This document shows, piece by piece, positions 4,102-55,777 of a stretch of 64,000 nucleotides of DNA. Position numbers and translations under genes: made by a program. Origin of the DNA: Alistipes senegalensis (lineage in GTDB: Bacteria > Bacillota > Clostridia > Oscillospirales > Ruminococcaceae); the NCBI GenBank assembly GCA_023665275.1, contig JAMPEF010000001.1, positions 104,924 to 168,923 on the forward strand, given 5' to 3'. How positions within the stretch are numbered: position 1 is the first letter of the stretch; each line of letters begins with the position of its first letter. Under the pieces are notes generated by a model. The model was not told the DNA's origin. It made no database searches and saw only the letters and a list, made by a program, of their open reading frames with translations.

Positions 4102-5292
4102 TTACATTTTACTGCCTTTGCTTCCCTTTGCTCCGAAACTTCCACCATTAGCAAGAATATTTGTATCAAACGAATAGTTTATTTTTTCACCCATTCTGTA
4201 GCGTTTAAGTGAAAGCTGTATCAGCTTTTCGAGGAGTTCAGGATATTTGACCCCTTTAGGTTGCCACAGATAGAATGCAAGCGAACCAGGGATAGTATTT
4301 ATTTCGTTTATGTATACTTTGTTATCATTCATATCAATCATGAAGTCTATACGTGTAACGCCGTTACAGCCGAGATAACGGAAAGCCTCTACAGCAGTTT
4401 TTCTTATAAATTCTTCCTGTTCCGGAGTGATGTCAGCCGGAATTTTTCTTGTAAGACTTGCCATGCCTTTACTACCCTTACTGCCATTTAAATACTTTTG
4501 TCCATAGCTTAGAATATCATCATTACTTGCCTGTATGGGTTCTTCACAAACGGAGGCTTCAGCTGATTCACTGTCGCCGACTACTGAGCAGTTTATCTCC
4601 TTGAGATTTACTACAGCAGGTTCTACTAAAATTCTGTCGGAAAAATCAAAAGCATTTTCCATTGATTTTATAAGACCGTCTCTGTCATTGGCTTTAGAAA
4701 TGCCCACGCTTGAACCTAAATTTATTGGTTTTACGATAACCGGATAGTCAAATTTCTTTTCTACCTTGTCGGCACATTGTTCGATTTTATCAATTTCAAA
4801 TGACGAAAAACGACAGCAGTCAAGAACAGGAAATCCAGCGTCTTTAAGTAAAATTTTCATAACGAATTTATCCATACCAACAGCCGAGGCGAGAACGTCA
4901 CAGCCCACGTATGGAATGTCAAGTGTCTGTAAATAACCCTGTAAAGCACCGTCTTCAACGTTAGTACCGTGTACTATCGGGAATGCTATGTCAACATCTG
5001 AAATCAGATTAGAACCGAATTTCTTCATTTTCTGTCGGATAAGCTGGACTTTACCCTCACTTCTCACGAAAACACAGGCGGTACATTCTTTAAGCATTTC
5101 CGGAATATTCTTGTATGAATTTATATCAAAAAGCTTTTCACCTGTCCAGAACTCGTTTTGTTTTGTCATGTAGACCGGAATTATATTATATTTTTCCTTG
5201 TTAATGCTTGTCATAGCCTGCACGGCTGAAATGACAGATACTTCATGTTCGACGCTTTTTCCGCCGAAAAGTACAGCAAGATTGATTTTCAT
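4102..5292 (-). CDS. ddl: D-alanine--D-alanine ligase
   Basis: A 396-residue ATP-grasp ligase making the D-Ala-D-Ala dipeptide for peptidoglycan. Visible motifs are LFGGKSVEHEVSVISA at the N-terminus, VIVKPINLGSSVGI for ATP binding, and VTRIDFMID plus INEINTIPGS for the metal-binding end. The omega-loop region reads SYGQKYLNG, so the tyrosine/lysine pattern suits D-Ala rather than D-lactate ligases, but this is only inferred. The start at 5292 has AAGGAGT upstream; a longer open frame to 5385 runs into the preceding gene. Two short Gly-Ser-Lys repeats (NGSKGSKG internally and AKGSKGSK at the C-terminus) are unusual. It follows the MurF-like gene by 28 bases, coupling synthesis of the dipeptide to its use. 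Confidence 0.93.
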   Translation of the reverse strand: MKINLAVLFGGKSVEHEVSVISAVQAMTSINKEKYNIIPVYMTKQNEFWTGEKLFDINSYKNIPEMLKECTACVFVRSEGKVQLIRQKMKKFGSNLISDVDIAFPIVHGTNVEDGALQGYLQTLDIPYVGCDVLASAVGMDKFVMKILLKDAGFPVLDCCRFSSFEIDKIEQCADKVEKKFDYPVIVKPINLGSSVGISKANDRDGLIKSMENAFDFSDRILVEPAVVNLKEINCSVVGDSESAEASVCEEPIQASNDDILSYGQKYLNGSKGSKGMASLTRKIPADITPEQEEFIRKTAVEAFRYLGCNGVTRIDFMIDMNDNKVYINEINTIPGSLAFYLWQPKGVKYPELLEKLIQLSLKRYRMGEKINYSFDTNILANGGSFGAKGSKGSKM

Positions 5293-5320
5293 AATAAAAA
5301 TTACTCCTTTTATATAAAAA

Positions 5321-47391: not shown

Positions 47392-49734
47392 TTATTTTGA
47401 TTTTGCAGCGGAACGGGCTTTCCACCATGACCATGTGACAGGTGCTACAAAAATTGAAGAGTAAGTACCTGAAATAAGTCCGAACATAAGCGGTACGGAG
47501 AACGTCAGCAGTGAGCTGTAACCGCTTATTGCAACGACAATAGTTACTATAAGCATAGTTGCAATAGTAGTTATTGAAGTACGTATAGAACGTGTCATGG
47601 ACTGTGAACAGCCAGCGTTGATAAGTTCGTTGAGTGAGGCTTTCGGCATAAGTTTCTTATTTTCACGTATTCTGTCGTAAATAACGATAGTATTGTTGAT
47701 TGAGTAACCTAAAATCGTAAGGATAACTGCAACGGTGTTTGAATTGAACTCAAATCCGAAAATAACAGATATGGCAATTGCAACAAGCAAGTCATGCAGA
47801 AGTGCAAGCACTGAACATACACCAGCAGACCAGCCACCTATATTACGGAAACGTACAGCAATATAAATAATTACTATAATTGCCGCAAAGATTACAGCGA
47901 CAAGGCATTTCAAAAGAAATTCACGTCCAGAAGACGGGCTGACATCTGTTGAATCGAAAAGTACAATATTACTGTCCGGAAATTCTGCCTGAAGTGCTTC
48001 AGTCATTTCAACCTGTCTGTCGACATTCAGACCCTGTTCAGATGTGAATGAAACTACAATCTGTTTGCCACCTGAATCAATGCTTTCACCCTTACGTACA
48101 CTTACAGGAACATTCACAATATCATGTACGATATTTTCAGCCTGATTTGTATCAATTTCACCGGTATAGTCGTAAGTAATCATAGTACCACCACTGAATT
48201 CAAGTGCAAAGTTTCCGCCACCTCTTATAATCAGACCACCGGCAAAAACTACTACAACACCGATAAGTATTCCAAAAATCATTTTTTTCTTTCCGCAGAA
48301 ATTATAAGTCTTTATTTCACGGGCTTTTTCCTTATAACCATAGAGTTTTTTATTCTGGAAACACTTAAACTTGGAAAGAGATGTAACCATAACTCTTGAA
48401 AGGAATACACCCATAATGAAGTTAAGTACAACACCCGCAAGAAGTGTGATACCGAATGAATATACAACACCCTCAGCAGTTGCACCGAACATGAAGAAAA
48501 TGGTTTTATTAAGAATTTTTGAGAAGAAACTTGTCGGAACGCCGAAAGCTCCCATAAGTATAATGGCAATGATAACATTGGTTATATTACCATCAAGAAT
48601 AGCCGAGAATGCTCTTTTATAAGCCACTTTTATAGCGGAATCAAGAGATTTTCCGGACTGTATTTCTTCCTTGATACGTTCACCGGTGATGATGTTTGCA
48701 TCAACGCCCATACCTACAGCAAGGATTATACCTGCAATACCAGGGATTGTAAGTGTAGAACCGGGCATGAATCCGAACCAACCCGATACAACGGCGATAC
48801 TTCCGGCAATCTGTCCGCAAAGTGCAATAACCGAAATAACACCAGGCAGACGGTAAAGGCATATCATATATATTGCAATGAATATAAATGCAATAAGTGC
48901 CGCAAGAAGTATAGCGTCAAGTGAACCCTCACCCATTGTGGGGTCAATTGTCTTGAAGCTTGTTGTTTCCAGTTTGAACGGCAACGCACCTGAATTAATC
49001 TGATTTGCAAGTTTATTAGCGGATTCGTCGGTAAAATTACCCGTAATAACTGCACTGCCGTCAGTGATAGCACTGTTGACAGTAGGGTAAGAAATCATAG
49101 TGTTATCCATCCATATGGAAATAGGTGTACCAGTTCCGGCGAGTTCAGCGGTAGCCTCTGCAAATTTAGTCTTACCGGACGGATTGAGATTAAGTTCAAT
49201 AAGGTTTTCATACGTTCCGGAGTCGTCATTTGCACGGTATACGGCTCTTGCACTTGCAACGTCCGCACCCTCAATGACGATTTCACCGGTAGGAATTACG
49301 TTTCCGTCATCGTCGGTTATGCTGTCTGTACCCTTACGAAAAGTAAGGATTGCCATTTCACCGAGTTCCTTTACAGATGCCGACGGGTCAAAGTCACTCT
49401 CACCTGCTTGCCACGGGAAACGCACAATGATTCTGTCACTTTTTTCATCGCTGTAAACTTCGCTGTCCGTTATACCAAGTGCTGATAATCTTGTATCGAT
49501 AATAGCCGTGGCAGCTTTCAGCTGTTCGGGTGTAGCGTCAGCACCATCAGCCGGAGCAAAGGTAACATCAACACCGCCCTTGATGTCAATGCCAAGACGG
49601 ATATCGTCAACACCCTTGATAACGGTTGTTGTGTTATCGCCATAAAGGTAATCAAGCCCGATTACAGCCGATACAGCAAACAGCGTGATTAAAGCAACAA
49701 CAATGAAGAAAGTAGATTTTCCAATCTTTTTCAC
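47392..49734 (-). CDS. secDF: SecDF fusion, protein translocase accessory subunit
   Basis: A 780-residue fusion of SecD and SecF with 12 predicted helices. The SecD half has DIRLGIDIKGGVDVTF, a P1 outer domain and GVDANIITGERIKEE; the SecF half has NFALEFSGGTMITYDY, GYSINNTIVIYDRIREN and the last helices. The SecD/F family uses the proton or sodium gradient to pull secreted proteins through SecYEG. The start is placed at a GTG (49734): GGAGG lies 7 bases before it, whereas the ATG at 49740 is only one base from that site. Confidence 0.93.
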   Translation of the reverse strand: MKKIGKSTFFIVVALITLFAVSAVIGLDYLYGDNTTTVIKGVDDIRLGIDIKGGVDVTFAPADGADATPEQLKAATAIIDTRLSALGITDSEVYSDEKSDRIIVRFPWQAGESDFDPSASVKELGEMAILTFRKGTDSITDDDGNVIPTGEIVIEGADVASARAVYRANDDSGTYENLIELNLNPSGKTKFAEATAELAGTGTPISIWMDNTMISYPTVNSAITDGSAVITGNFTDESANKLANQINSGALPFKLETTSFKTIDPTMGEGSLDAILLAALIAFIFIAIYMICLYRLPGVISVIALCGQIAGSIAVVSGWFGFMPGSTLTIPGIAGIILAVGMGVDANIITGERIKEEIQSGKSLDSAIKVAYKRAFSAILDGNITNVIIAIILMGAFGVPTSFFSKILNKTIFFMFGATAEGVVYSFGITLLAGVVLNFIMGVFLSRVMVTSLSKFKCFQNKKLYGYKEKAREIKTYNFCGKKKMIFGILIGVVVVFAGGLIIRGGGNFALEFSGGTMITYDYTGEIDTNQAENIVHDIVNVPVSVRKGESIDSGGKQIVVSFTSEQGLNVDRQVEMTEALQAEFPDSNIVLFDSTDVSPSSGREFLLKCLVAVIFAAIIVIIYIAVRFRNIGGWSAGVCSVLALLHDLLVAIAISVIFGFEFNSNTVAVILTILGYSINNTIVIYDRIRENKKLMPKASLNELINAGCSQSMTRSIRTSITTIATMLIVTIVVAISGYSSLLTFSVPLMFGLISGTYSSIFVAPVTWSWWKARSAAKSK

Positions 49735-49787
49735 GGTCATGCCTCCTGAAAATATAATTTTGTTCTGTCTGTATGACAATTAATATT

Positions 49788-50264: not shown

Positions 50265-51668
<1,404 letters not shown>

Positions 51669-52832
51669 TTACCTCCTTTTAAAGTCAAATATCTTGTCAC
51701 GATAGTATTCATATTGCTTTTTTCTTGCCGATATTTCGGCGGGTATACCGTTTGTGAGGTCATTACATAGAGTATCAAATTTGTAAAGTATTTTTACTAT
51801 TCTTACCTGCTCCTCAATCGGTGGAATTGGGATATTAATTTTAGATAATTTTTCACCAGTTGTTGTAGCTCTTGTGGTAAAAGAAGCATATTTTATTATT
51901 TGGCTTCTAACATTATGTGTAGAAAAATAATACGCACAAAATTTAGGAATTAATAAAGTTGTTATCGGTCTTGCTCTTAAAACAAAACCACTGAAAACAC
52001 AATCGGGTACATCTTCTATTAAAGTGCTTGACATACCAATATCTTCTTTAGTTTCAGATGTTCTTGTAAAAAAAACATCACCTTTTTTAGCACTATATCT
52101 TTTAATTTCATTAGGTGTAACATCAACAAGCCCTGAAAATGAATCTTTAGCCAACCACCTGTTTTTATATACATCAGTAAAATTAATTATTGGCTTTCCC
52201 TTGCCAAAAGCAGATTTTTCTTTATTAAGACCATTCTTGATTTTAAAAAGTTCTCCCAGTAGTTTACACTCAATGTCATTACCGAAATTCAACAGCTTAT
52301 CCCGATAATATGAATATTGTTTTTTTCTTAATTCAAGCTCTTTTTCAAGTAATTCTATACATTCGGTGAAAATGTCAAGTATACGAACTACTTCACGTTG
52401 TATCTCTATGGGTGGAGCAGGAATTAAAAAATTTTCAATGCTTGATATATGAACGTGCGGAACTCCTCCACCTTTTTTTGTGGTATAAATTTTATCTTGT
52501 ATACTGGAAAGAAAATAAAAGATATATTTAGTTAATAATTTTTCATTTCCTTTAACAGAAAACGCATCATTTACAAAAATTGGAGTATTCCAATATTGCA
52601 CATATCCTGCACTTGCCCCACTTCCAGCAACAGTAATTATTTCACCGGTACGGTTACTTCTATCACAATAAAAAGCCGGTTCTTTTCCACCTGAAATTAC
52701 AGGTATTAAACCTTTTAATAAATCTTTTTTTGTAGCCGATGTTCCTCTTTTCATTTCGGTAACAATACCAAGTTTTTTATACTCCACACCGTCGGGGCAT
52801 AGTCTTTCAATCATATCAAAAATGTTTTCCAT
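51669..52832 (-). CDS. hsdS: Type I restriction-modification specificity subunit (HsdS), inserted in the atp operon
   Basis: A 387-residue S subunit with two target recognition domains (about 15-155 and 200-345), each followed by a conserved helical region. The first is IPAPPIEIQREVVRILDIF...RKKQYSYYRDKLLNF, the second IPIPPIEEQVRIVKILYKF...RKKQYEYYRDKIFDF. Full length, no frameshift. HsdS directs the methylase (HsdM) and nuclease (HsdR) to a bipartite DNA site; neither is in the window. The ATG at 52832 lies 4 bases after the atpG stop, with GAGGAA inside atpG as RBS. The stop is 12 bases before atpD. The coding sequence is clearly more AT-rich than its neighbours, indicating transfer. Confidence 0.93.
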   Translation of the reverse strand: MENIFDMIERLCPDGVEYKKLGIVTEMKRGTSATKKDLLKGLIPVISGGKEPAFYCDRSNRTGEIITVAGSGASAGYVQYWNTPIFVNDAFSVKGNEKLLTKYIFYFLSSIQDKIYTTKKGGGVPHVHISSIENFLIPAPPIEIQREVVRILDIFTECIELLEKELELRKKQYSYYRDKLLNFGNDIECKLLGELFKIKNGLNKEKSAFGKGKPIINFTDVYKNRWLAKDSFSGLVDVTPNEIKRYSAKKGDVFFTRTSETKEDIGMSSTLIEDVPDCVFSGFVLRARPITTLLIPKFCAYYFSTHNVRSQIIKYASFTTRATTTGEKLSKINIPIPPIEEQVRIVKILYKFDTLCNDLTNGIPAEISARKKQYEYYRDKIFDFKRR

Positions 52833-52836
52833 TATG

Positions 52837-53745
52837 CTATTCCTCAATACTTGCCGCACCACCACAGACTTCCGTTATTTCCTGTGTAATGGCGGCTTGT
52901 CTTGCACGGTTATATAGCAGTGACAGGTCTTTTATAATATCCTTTGCACTTTTTGTAGCGGCGTCCATAGCGGTCATGCGTGCCTGTTGTTCGCAACAGA
53001 AAGCCTCAACCATTGCACCGTAAATAATACCCTTTGCAAAGTTCGGAATCAAATAAGCCATAACCTCTTCCGGTGACGGTACAAACGACGCCTTAGGAAG
53101 TTTTTTCATAGTACCATCGTCGGCTTTACCTAAATGTCTTCTGCTGAACGGCAAAAGCTGTACCGTTTTTACTTCAAACTGGCTTGAATTTGTCATCTGT
53201 GTATATATCAGATAAACTTCATCAAGTTCTTTTTTTTCAAATTTTTCAAGAACTATTTCAGCTATTTCCCTTGCCCTGTAGAGTGTAGGATTTTGTGTAG
53301 TATAAAGAAATTCCCCGTCTACATAAGCCTTTTTATCCTTTTTCATACGGTTCTGAAAGTACATTCTGCCGACGTGTCCCATGACAAACAGATAGCAGTT
53401 ATCAATATATGGTGTTTCAGATAATTTCTGTTCAGTATATCTTAGAATATTATGATTATAACTGCCACAAAGTCCCTTGTCAGCCGTAATGACGATATAG
53501 CCTTTTTTACGCTTATCGTCGGAAATTCCTTGTCTTTTATCGAAATAGAACTGTCTTGTATGTGGTGTATGTTCCAGAATACTTTCAATAGTGGACTGCA
53601 ATTTTTCAAAGTAAGGTGTGGTAGCGTCAAGAGATTTACGGGCTTTTTTGAGTTTTGAGGAAGAAATAAGGTACATGGCATTAGTGATTTTAAGTATCTG
53701 CTGTATACTTGCGATACGTTCACGAATTTCCCTGATATTAGCCAA
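52837..53745 (-). CDS. atpG: ATP synthase F1 gamma subunit
   Basis: A 302-residue gamma subunit, the rotating central shaft. N-terminal IREIRERIASIQQILKITNAMYLISSSKLKKA and C-terminal AMDAATKSAKDIIKDL followed by LYNRARQAAITQEITEVCGGA are typical, with ITADKGLCGSYN in the middle. Complete to its normal C-terminus despite the adjoining insertion. RBS AGGAGGGG at 13 bases after the delta-alpha gene. Confidence 0.96.
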   Translation of the reverse strand: MANIREIRERIASIQQILKITNAMYLISSSKLKKARKSLDATTPYFEKLQSTIESILEHTPHTRQFYFDKRQGISDDKRKKGYIVITADKGLCGSYNHNILRYTEQKLSETPYIDNCYLFVMGHVGRMYFQNRMKKDKKAYVDGEFLYTTQNPTLYRAREIAEIVLEKFEKKELDEVYLIYTQMTNSSQFEVKTVQLLPFSRRHLGKADDGTMKKLPKASFVPSPEEVMAYLIPNFAKGIIYGAMVEAFCCEQQARMTAMDAATKSAKDIIKDLSLLYNRARQAAITQEITEVCGGAASIEE

Positions 53746-53758
53746 AATTTACCCCTCC

Positions 53759-55777
53759 TTATTCCTCAAAAGCCGTTAAAATTCTTTCTATTCTTTCGGC
53801 GAGTTCGTCCGTAAGAACCTTTTTATTTTCGAGTTCCTCAATAATATCCTGCCCGTAACTGCGTATATAGTTCATAAGTTCCGTGCGATATTCCCTTATT
53901 TCTTTCAACGGAATATCCCTGAAAAATCCATGTTGTGCCGCATAAAGCAATATTACCTGTTCATAGTGCGGAAGCGGATTATATAACGGTTGTTTGAGTA
54001 ATTCTGTAAGCATACGTCCGTGATTGAGTAAATCAGTAGTGGACTTGTCTAACTCTGAAGAAAACTGTGTAAATATTTCCATTTCCTTGAACTGTGCCAA
54101 ATCTATACGAAGATTTCCGGCGGCTTTTTTCATAGCCTTAGTCTGTGCCGCACCACCTACACGTGATACAGAAAGTCCATAGTTTACGGCTGGTCGCTGA
54201 CCTGAATTAAATAATTCACTTTCAAGAAAAATCTGACCGTCCGTTATTGAGATTACATTTGTCGGGATATATGCAGAAATATCACCGGCAAGAGTTTCAA
54301 TAATCGGCAGTGCCGTGAGTGAACCTCCACCGTGTTCGTCGTCAAGACGGCTGGAACGTTCAAGAAGTCTTGAATGAAGATAGAATACATCACCAGGGTA
54401 CGCCTCACGTCCTGGAGGACGGTGCAGAAGTAACGACATTGCACGATATGCTACGGCGTGTTTTGATAAATCATCATATACTATTAAAACGTCCTTACCT
54501 TTTGACATGAAATATTCCGCCATAGCCGTGCCAGAATATGGTGCGATATACTGAAACGGTGCGGGTTCGCTTGCCGACGCTGAAACTACTACAGAATATT
54601 CCATAGCACCGTATTTTTTCAGATTATTCACTACCTGTGCGACAGTAGACGATTTTTGACCTATTGCAACGTATATACAAATAACGTCCTTGCCCTTCTG
54701 GTTTATTATAGTATCAACGGCAATTGAAGTTTTTCCGGTTTGTCTGTCGCCTATGATAAGTTCACGCTGTCCACGTCCGATAGGGAACATTGAGTCAATG
54801 GCAAGAATACCCGTCTGTAACGGAACATTTACGGATTTTCTTTCAATAACGCTTGGTGCTTCACGTTCGATAGGGAAGTAGTCTTCTGCTTTTATCGCAC
54901 CGAGTCCATCGATTGGAGAGCCGAGAGCATCAACTACACGTCCTAAAAGTTCATCACTTACGCCGACGCCGGCACGTTTTCCGGTACGTATAACGGAAGA
55001 ACCCTCTGTTAAACCCTGCTCCTGTCCGAGAAGTACCGCACCTACAGTTTTTTCCTCAAGGCTCTGGATAATACCACGCACACCGTTTTCAAATTCAACA
55101 AGTTCACCGTACATAACACCGGTCATTCCGTGAATACGTGCTATTCCGTCGCCTATACGGGTAATAAATCCTGTTTCAGTAGTGCCGGTCTTTGCGGTGA
55201 AATCTTTTACTTCAGTTTTGAGGACTGATATAATATCACCGGAACTTGTATTGTCGGATTCGGCAAGTTCAGTAGCTTTAGCCTGAAAACTTTCTTTCAT
55301 CATTTTAAGGCTTGTACGGTAACTTTTATCATATTCCACGTCACCGGCATTGAGAATGAAACCACCTATAATATCGGGGTCGTGACGGTATTCAATGGCA
55401 ACGTCTTCTTTGACGAATTTTTCCATAATGAATTTCCGCAAATCAGCCTGTTGTGTTTCGGTAAGAGGTGTAACGTATCTTACAACGGCACGAATACTGT
55501 TTTGTTTATCAAGGAGAATATCGCTGTATTCGTCGAAAATTTCAGACAGATTATCAATCATTCCGTCCTTTACGGCATTAATAAGAAATCTGTTTAAATT
55601 TTCGGGAAAAAGTTTTTTAATAATATTTCTTTTTTCGTCAAGAGTAACAAGCGGATTTGAAAGTGTGTCCGCAACGTCCGGACAGCCAGCGAAAATATTT
55701 CTTACTGAATCAATATCCTCCTGTGAAACTTCAAGCCGGACAAGTTCTTTCAGGAAATCTTTTTGATTATCTTTCAT
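53759..55777 (-). CDS. atpHA: ATP synthase delta-alpha fusion protein
   Basis: A single 672-residue frame combining two subunits that are normally separate. Residues 1-170 are delta (OSCP) subunit: [37 protein letters not shown] and [19 protein letters not shown]. Residues from about 178 are alpha subunit: [15 protein letters not shown], Walker [10 protein letters not shown] (343-351), [29 protein letters not shown] and [10 protein letters not shown]. Alpha is full length, so the join is at the alpha N-terminus, the region delta contacts on top of F1; the fusion fixes one delta to an alpha chain, which raises a stoichiometry problem (three alpha, one delta). ATG overlaps the atpF stop (ATGA). 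No separate delta gene is present. Confidence 0.93.

Follow-up and report, generated by a model that had tools for sequence, protein, structure and literature searches.

How does an intact gene for a type I restriction specificity subunit come to lie inside an ATP synthase operon with no HsdM or HsdR partner beside it, and what might it do there? The window analysed here is a stretch of 64,000 nucleotides within C37, a 702-kb contig of a 2.9-Mb genome in 125 contigs (G000), whose nearest named relatives by AtpG, at 98% identity and below, are Ruminococcus assemblies. The parts of the locus, in window coordinates, are the following.

51669..52832, minus strand: hsdS, a solitary type I restriction specificity subunit gene of family A, 387 aa
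52332..52796 (C37:157255-157719), minus strand: first Methylase_S domain (TRD1 and its helix), a PF01420 profile match
51729..52271 (C37:156652-157194), minus strand: second Methylase_S domain (TRD2 and its helix), a PF01420 profile match
52837..53745, minus strand: atpG, the upstream neighbour of hsdS, whole
50265..51656, minus strand: atpD, the downstream neighbour of hsdS, whole
52840..52845, minus strand: GAGGAA, presumed Shine-Dalgarno (SD) of hsdS, within the last atpG codons, as read in the sequence
51672..51677, minus strand: AGGAGG, presumed SD of atpD, within the last hsdS codons, as read in the sequence

A first-pass annotation of this DNA had described a full-length, in-frame hsdS in operon orientation between two whole genes, and the description holds in each respect. 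The frame runs from an ATG at 52832 to a stop at 51669-51671, with 4 bp between the atpG stop (52837-52839) and its start and 12 bp between its own stop and the start of atpD (51656). The two PF01420 domains of the protein score 139 bits against a cut-off of 22, a match to the EcoR124 S subunit (7bst) extends over 290 residues (E 6e-33), the TRDs vary between conserved N-terminal, central and C-terminal regions as expected of a type I HsdS, and a KKQYxYYRDK tail places the protein in family A. The arrangement of ribosome-binding sites was also read correctly, with GAGGAA standing 7 nt from the hsdS start and AGGAGG 15 nt from that of atpD, the latter a long spacing. The gene is as AT-rich as had been remarked, at 32% GC (21% at third codon positions) vs 44% for atpD and 39% for atpG. 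As for the missing partners, no hsdM or hsdR match lies within 3 kb, where a canonical hsdRMS operon would have one, and a profile search found no hsdM anywhere on C37; the partners are encoded elsewhere. The window holds no PF01420 match beyond this gene, and the next S gene on the contig lies some 219 kb off, so the locus is not of the inverting, phase-variable kind, in which a second hsdS would lie within about 30 kb.

Two other open reading frames of the window deserve a brief mention. A 672-aa ORF (53759-55777, minus strand) fuses the ATP synthase delta (OSCP, PF00213) and alpha domains, and this fusion looks genus-wide, because the alpha ORF exceeds 600 aa in 75 of the 76 relative loci in which one is recognisable. 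A 795-aa ORF (47392-49779, minus strand) is presumably a SecD-SecF fusion.

An assembly this fragmented, with two contigs (C20 and C24) that break off within an S gene, raises the thought that an hsdS contig was simply joined to the atp operon. The comparison of related atp operons that the first-pass annotation proposed speaks against such a chimera. The same atpG-hsdS-atpD junction, with like borders, recurs in 8 of 80 named relative loci, and is therefore the product of neither chance nor faulty joining; the window, moreover, is embedded in a very long contig, and 10 of the 11 solitary-S positions (slots) examined are filled in at least one genome other than G000. For the clade the chimera is thus refuted, and for the window itself it is barely conceivable.

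The eight occupied loci all fall among the 15 whose AtpG is at least 86% identical to that of the window, while no S gene was found at this position in the remaining 65 of the 80; the contigs of L068 and L107 end before atpD, and L068 is included in the eight. The S gene is full-length in L067 and L078 and cut by the contig end in L068, whereas L069, L072, L077 and L079 carry half-length, one-TRD versions and L075 carries two half-S genes in tandem. Between the latter, at L075 5482-5566, the beginning of atpD meets the end of atpG across a short stretch that both have in common (CAGG and neighbours), a junction likely left by tandem duplication of S together with its flanks. Five close loci without S (L073, L074, L076, L080 and L081) have atpG-atpD gaps of just 17-27 bp. 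In L070, of genome G055, the gap holds instead a 118-aa ORF (4950-5306) of the 23S rRNA intervening-sequence protein family (PF05635), and in L071, of G068, a small ORF that matches the L070 ORF over 86 aa, the family search having been done on the L070 copy. These ORFs are flanked by AT-rich repeats and take the place of hsdS in both genomes, so the atpG-atpD gap accepts other small genes as well.

The genome at large puts the atp-slot gene in company that the first-pass annotation had missed, along with the clade-wide polymorphism of the slots and the broken state of the gene's own-family hsdM and hsdR. The search for further hsdS, hsdM and hsdR that it had suggested returned 33 PF01420 domain matches, a full-length S giving two, and 8 strong N6_Mtase matches. 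Thirteen S genes, the window copy included, are solitary, in the sense that none of 13 HsdM/HsdR queries matches within 3 kb, and the genome thereby shows many solitary hsdS and fewer cognate hsdM, as does a Mycoplasma-type scattered array. The genes beside the twelve others are mostly housekeeping genes and comprise, by NCBIfam naming, dtd; tgt and queA; valS; uvrB and secA; hflX and asnS; thiS and thiF; coaX; queC; hisA; the NAD(P)HX epimerase-dehydratase gene (nnr); and adhE, with the thirteenth solitary S gene lying on contig C90. Each of the 13 runs in the same direction as the gene downstream of it, and 11 overlap that gene or end within 20 bp of it, the exceptions being the valS slot (368 bp) and the adhE slot (62 bp). 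The majority are full-length with two TRDs, and the adhE-slot copy has a tail that appears frame-shifted. The queC-slot S genes of G000 (L024, near 7960) and G068 (L185) lack an ATG, GTG or TTG at the expected start and, in junctions read by eye, show an ATA there behind an SD-like run.

A similar picture emerges from the 62 solitary S ORFs collected across the clade, a figure that includes 11 ORFs running off a contig or locus end and a few that are fragments of one and the same gene. Of the 62, 48 have a co-directional gene downstream and 8 a gene in the opposite direction, the neighbour being out of view for 6, and the gap is 30 bp or less in 40 of the 48 co-directional cases. The relatives add glmS, ribonuclease Z, uvrC, thiC, rubrerythrin and dapF to the list of neighbours, together with a GatD-like gene that scores below its curated cut-off. 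Carrying many S genes is a rare trait. Any PF01420 match was found in 35 of 60 genomes of the genus (G000 included), and at least 15 domain matches, besides G000, in G068 (33), G003 (19), G055 (18) and G072 (15); in a survey of 197 genomes of the order, which scored 17 of the 39 G000 candidates, 90 had any match and the top counts besides G000 were 12 and 11.

When the 11 slots were followed through nine clade genomes, 34 of the 99 cells held an S gene, counted as one within 400 bp of a slot anchor, 60 held none, one was doubtful (a 17-aa match at the hisA slot of G072) and in 4 the anchors were not found. Four of the cells scored as filled rest on a weak match or on one far from the anchor (queA of G072, 348 bp off; queA and uvrB of G055, at about 40% identity; nnr of G068, at 33%), and some of the empty ones rest on short flanks, e.g., 355-488 bp in L355, L365 and L322. 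With G000 set aside, because the slots were chosen from it, an S gene is present in 23 of the 83 informative cells, and hisA is the only slot not filled in any other genome.

The borders of these slots show how an S gene can sit among core genes. At the hflX slot, the form without S has hflX overlapping the next gene (TATTTATGTTAG), while in the filled form the end of hflX overlaps the start of S, the next gene begins 19 bp past S behind a GGAGG, and AATATTTA is found on both sides of S. At the dtd slot, the stop codon of S and the start codon of dtd overlap (ATGA), and the S tail carries AAGGAG in G000, G072 and G003 and GAGGTG in G055. The gene upstream of dtd, for which no NCBIfam name was obtained, we take to be a glycosidase; an assignment as RelA was rejected, and the flank upstream of dtd matches between the filled slot of G000 and the empty one of G043. 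At the nnr slot of G068, S ends at the place where relatives lacking S have their SD region. Genomes lacking S at the hisA, nnr, queC and valS slots have other sequence between the anchors, so that the genes do not abut. The same kind of tail is present in complete family-A hsdMSR loci, where S ends with GAGGAG or AAGGAG and overlaps the hsdR start (in G055, G003 and the M-S fusion of G068), and such built-in coupling may be what lets an S cistron enter operons harmlessly. As a general rule, an SD within the S tail had to be abandoned. Among the 26 family-A solitary S genes whose 3′ end is complete, 17 have one, 9 of the 17 being at the atp slot; counted by slot the share is about half, against a background of 54 of 396 other ORFs and 46 of 190 with a close co-directional neighbour, and what remains is a tendency.

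Two routes of entry were considered and rejected. Transposon-like insertion does not fit, as a comparison of borders over the 11 slots, made by eye on alignments whose borders are rough, gave no common end sequence and no constant target duplication; by that comparison the S gene does not qualify as a transposon- or integron-like cassette, which would be expected to have terminal repeats, a target duplication or a recombinase of its own. A phage origin was discarded likewise, with 11 phage records matching the window S, all below 60% identity. By tblastn, 1464 plasmid records match it, again all below 60%.

What does vary within the slots is the target-recognition domains (TRDs). Judged from the aligned DNA, the sister genome G043, 98% identical in AtpG, keeps the ends of the atp-slot S gene and differs in both TRDs: in 40-base blocks, the S genes of the window and L067 are 90-100% identical at the gene start and 77-100% at the end, while central blocks drop to 60-80% and almost every TRD block to 25-60%. 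Turnover of TRDs behind kept ends is typical of selected S genes. L077 and L078 have TRD1 in common (blocks of 90-100%), and L078 has a second TRD. TRDs are also common to different slots, which shows past exchange. TRDs at the dtd and adhE slots of G000 are 85% identical over 185 aa, TRDs at the adhE and hflX slots of G055 83%, and those of the G043 atp allele and the G055 glmS half-S 80%; the first TRD of the hflX S in G000 resembles the second TRD of the glmS S in G072 (80%), and between the valS-slot S of G000 and the S of the complete MRS-A locus in the same genome the figure is 79%. Between G000 and G055, the two coaX-slot S genes have 98.3% DNA identity where nearly all flanking 100-base blocks are 78-96% identical, the mark of a recent, gene-sized exchange.

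The rate at which slot proteins change bears on whether they are used. Over aligned codons, dN/dS is 0.133, 0.085, 0.133 and 0.126 for atp-slot alleles sharing one TRD (overlapping pairs, L078 being compared by its first half), 0.204 for a full-length pair at the uvrB slot and 0.391, on 11 differences, for the coaX pair; five of the six pairs, drawn from two slots and exclusive of the window allele, thus lie between 0.085 and 0.204. Such low values suggest that slot proteins are under selection. The first-pass annotation had offered two uses for the gene, constant expression from a housekeeping transcript and storage for recombination with another hsdS. Both are compatible with the data, except that a purely silent store is the less likely form of the second, because the frames are intact, in coding orientation and near the next gene, and because the dN/dS of slot alleles is low. 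An archive of solitary genes that make no useful protein and only donate TRDs to the S of complete loci by homologous recombination would, to be sure, account for the TRDs common to slots and MRS loci, for the many half-length, single-TRD copies and for a broken cognate enzyme of the window's family in G000. We consider it unlikely, given that all 13 G000 copies are in coding orientation, 11 of them overlapping the next gene or within 20 bp of it, and that values of 0.09-0.20 in five of six slot pairs suggest protein-level selection in place.

The same values weigh against the idea that the S genes are non-adaptive passengers, copied into permissive gaps by illegitimate recombination and drifting there with their neighbours undisturbed. 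Patchy slot occupancy, the unrelated small gene at the atp slot of G055 and G068, one frame-shifted copy, broken cognate genes and a family-A S in G002 with no close hsdM are all what such drift would leave behind. Set against them are the low dN/dS in five of six pairs from two slots, the TRD turnover behind kept ends and the recognisable family tail in 12 of the 13 G000 copies, and drift of this kind seems to us quite improbable as the explanation.

By their tails, the solitary S genes of G000 fall into families A (5, the window copy included), B (5) and C (2); the frame-shifted adhE copy was assigned to family A by TRD similarity. An HsdM of each family is encoded in a locus with S of the same family: there is one such locus, broken, for family A, and there are two for B and one for C. 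On C55, the M, S and R genes of family C are all open. The hsdM copies of family B, 96% identical to each other, are on the short contigs C20 and C24 (L029 and L031), both of which end inside S in the same central repeat; S repeats thus break the assembly, and S genes may therefore be under-counted. The family-A locus, on C62 (L028 32-4137), carries two in-frame stops in hsdM, one in hsdS and at least two in the part of hsdR that is present, and no second close family-A hsdM was found in G000. Because all three genes of this locus carry in-frame stops, the window S is likely to be without a working cognate in its own genome at present.

Relatives retain what G000 has lost to differing degrees. 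G055 has intact family-A M, S and R genes in one locus, G003 has M on one contig and S with R on another, and G048 has an open hsdM. In G068 (C90, L193 3256-5457), HsdM is fused to a half-length HsdS in a 733-aa ORF followed by hsdR. The apparent stops in the hsdM matches of these four genomes fall, by their reading frames, ahead of the start. No close family-A hsdM was found in G043, G067 and G072, which are 81-90% complete, and in G002, which is 99% complete and has a family-A S at its atp slot, the best family-A-like hsdM is 39% identical. It could be proposed that solitary S proteins, full or half, capture HsdM from incoming or resident systems, changing or weakening their activity rather than adding specificities. 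Half-length genes do predominate in some genomes, such as G055, where five of six family-A solitary S genes are of 184-211 aa, but most of those in G000 are full-length with two TRDs; interference of this sort appears highly unlikely.

We consider it reasonably probable that the atp-slot hsdS, as one of 13 partner-less S genes, is an interchangeable specificity module for HsdM and HsdR encoded elsewhere, and that the solitary S genes together form a scattered collection of modules that recombine, are probably maintained by selection and are used in trans with matching HsdM. In its favour, slots are common to related species with or without S, TRDs vary behind conserved ends and recur between slots and in complete hsdMSR loci, and most inserts end within 30 bp of the downstream gene. 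Against it stand the broken family-A locus of G000, the S of G002 without a close hsdM, the frame-shifted adhE copy and the fact that four of the five low dN/dS values are overlapping pairs at one slot. The S module would be translated from the housekeeping transcript, and its conserved helices would dock on HsdM of the same family to form an M2S methylase of new specificity, which with HsdR would become a restriction enzyme of new specificity; recombination in the conserved ends and core-gene flanks would swap the specificity. Since the family-A locus of G000 is broken, the window copy is predicted to be a reserve for now, one that would become active once a family-A hsdM is regained.

A broader proposal can be made only tentatively. 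The hsdS cistron may be a mobile plug-in module that inserts at the start codon of a core gene or at its ribosome-binding site, in many cases with an SD in its own tail, and builds a population-wide library of specificities in essential operons, its alleles being exchanged through flanking core-gene homology without transposase or integrase. If so, the specificities of a restriction system could be distributed among essential operons and passed on with them, a single HsdM/HsdR could have many specificities simultaneously, and populations could trade these through routine homologous recombination within core genes. The sets of empty, filled and allele-swapped slots in this clade make it possible to test how S genes spread, how hosts tolerate more than a few specificities and whether S genes without partners persist as a reserve after their enzymes are gone. 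Software that searches for complete hsdRMS loci would overlook the majority of S genes in genomes of this type.

The general kind is already known, because scattered hsdS genes have been described in Mycoplasma and an extra S acting in trans has been inferred in Lactococcus. Mycoplasma pneumoniae has 10 hsdS in all sequenced strains, some truncated and varying by a 12-bp repeat, together with 2 hsdM and a broken hsdR, and the authors state that each HsdS can pair with an available HsdM (PMC4537597). The likeness to G000 lies in dispersed hsdS, few hsdM and broken hsdR; scattered S genes persist there beside a broken hsdR much as the window S does, but with hsdM kept (PMC4537597). Here, by contrast, slots are polymorphic between species, lie in or beside core operons and have whole TRDs replaced. 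Lactococcus lactis has a plasmid hsdS, the last gene of a repB-orfX-hsdS unit, which the authors infer to act in trans with chromosomal HsdM/HsdR and to raise phage resistance (PMC3138775); the S gene there is plasmid-borne, unlike the chromosomal core-operon slots described here. A complete orphan hsdS of Staphylococcus epidermidis works only with matching HsdM, follows a truncated hsdR outside housekeeping operons and is proposed by the authors to spread with SCC elements (PMC6918075).

Recombination within S genes has its own precedents. Inverting hsdS loci, or phasevarions, likewise exchange TRDs by recombination in conserved regions, but they do so among several S genes with inverted repeats in one type I locus (PMC7394358), whereas the nearest other S on the contig of the window is about 219 kb away. 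The domain movement described for Helicobacter pylori HsdS, in which a sequence shifts position within S (PMC3077401), finds a parallel in the first TRD at hflX in G000 and the second at glmS in G072, with the difference that in this clade TRDs move among dispersed slots and across species. A full-text search of non-subscription literature gave no description of hsdS embedded in housekeeping operons in the titles and abstract openings of the matches listed. What appears to be new in the present case is the use of core-operon slots, which are empty, filled or swapped across a Ruminococcus clade, are mostly harmless to their neighbours and turn over between species.
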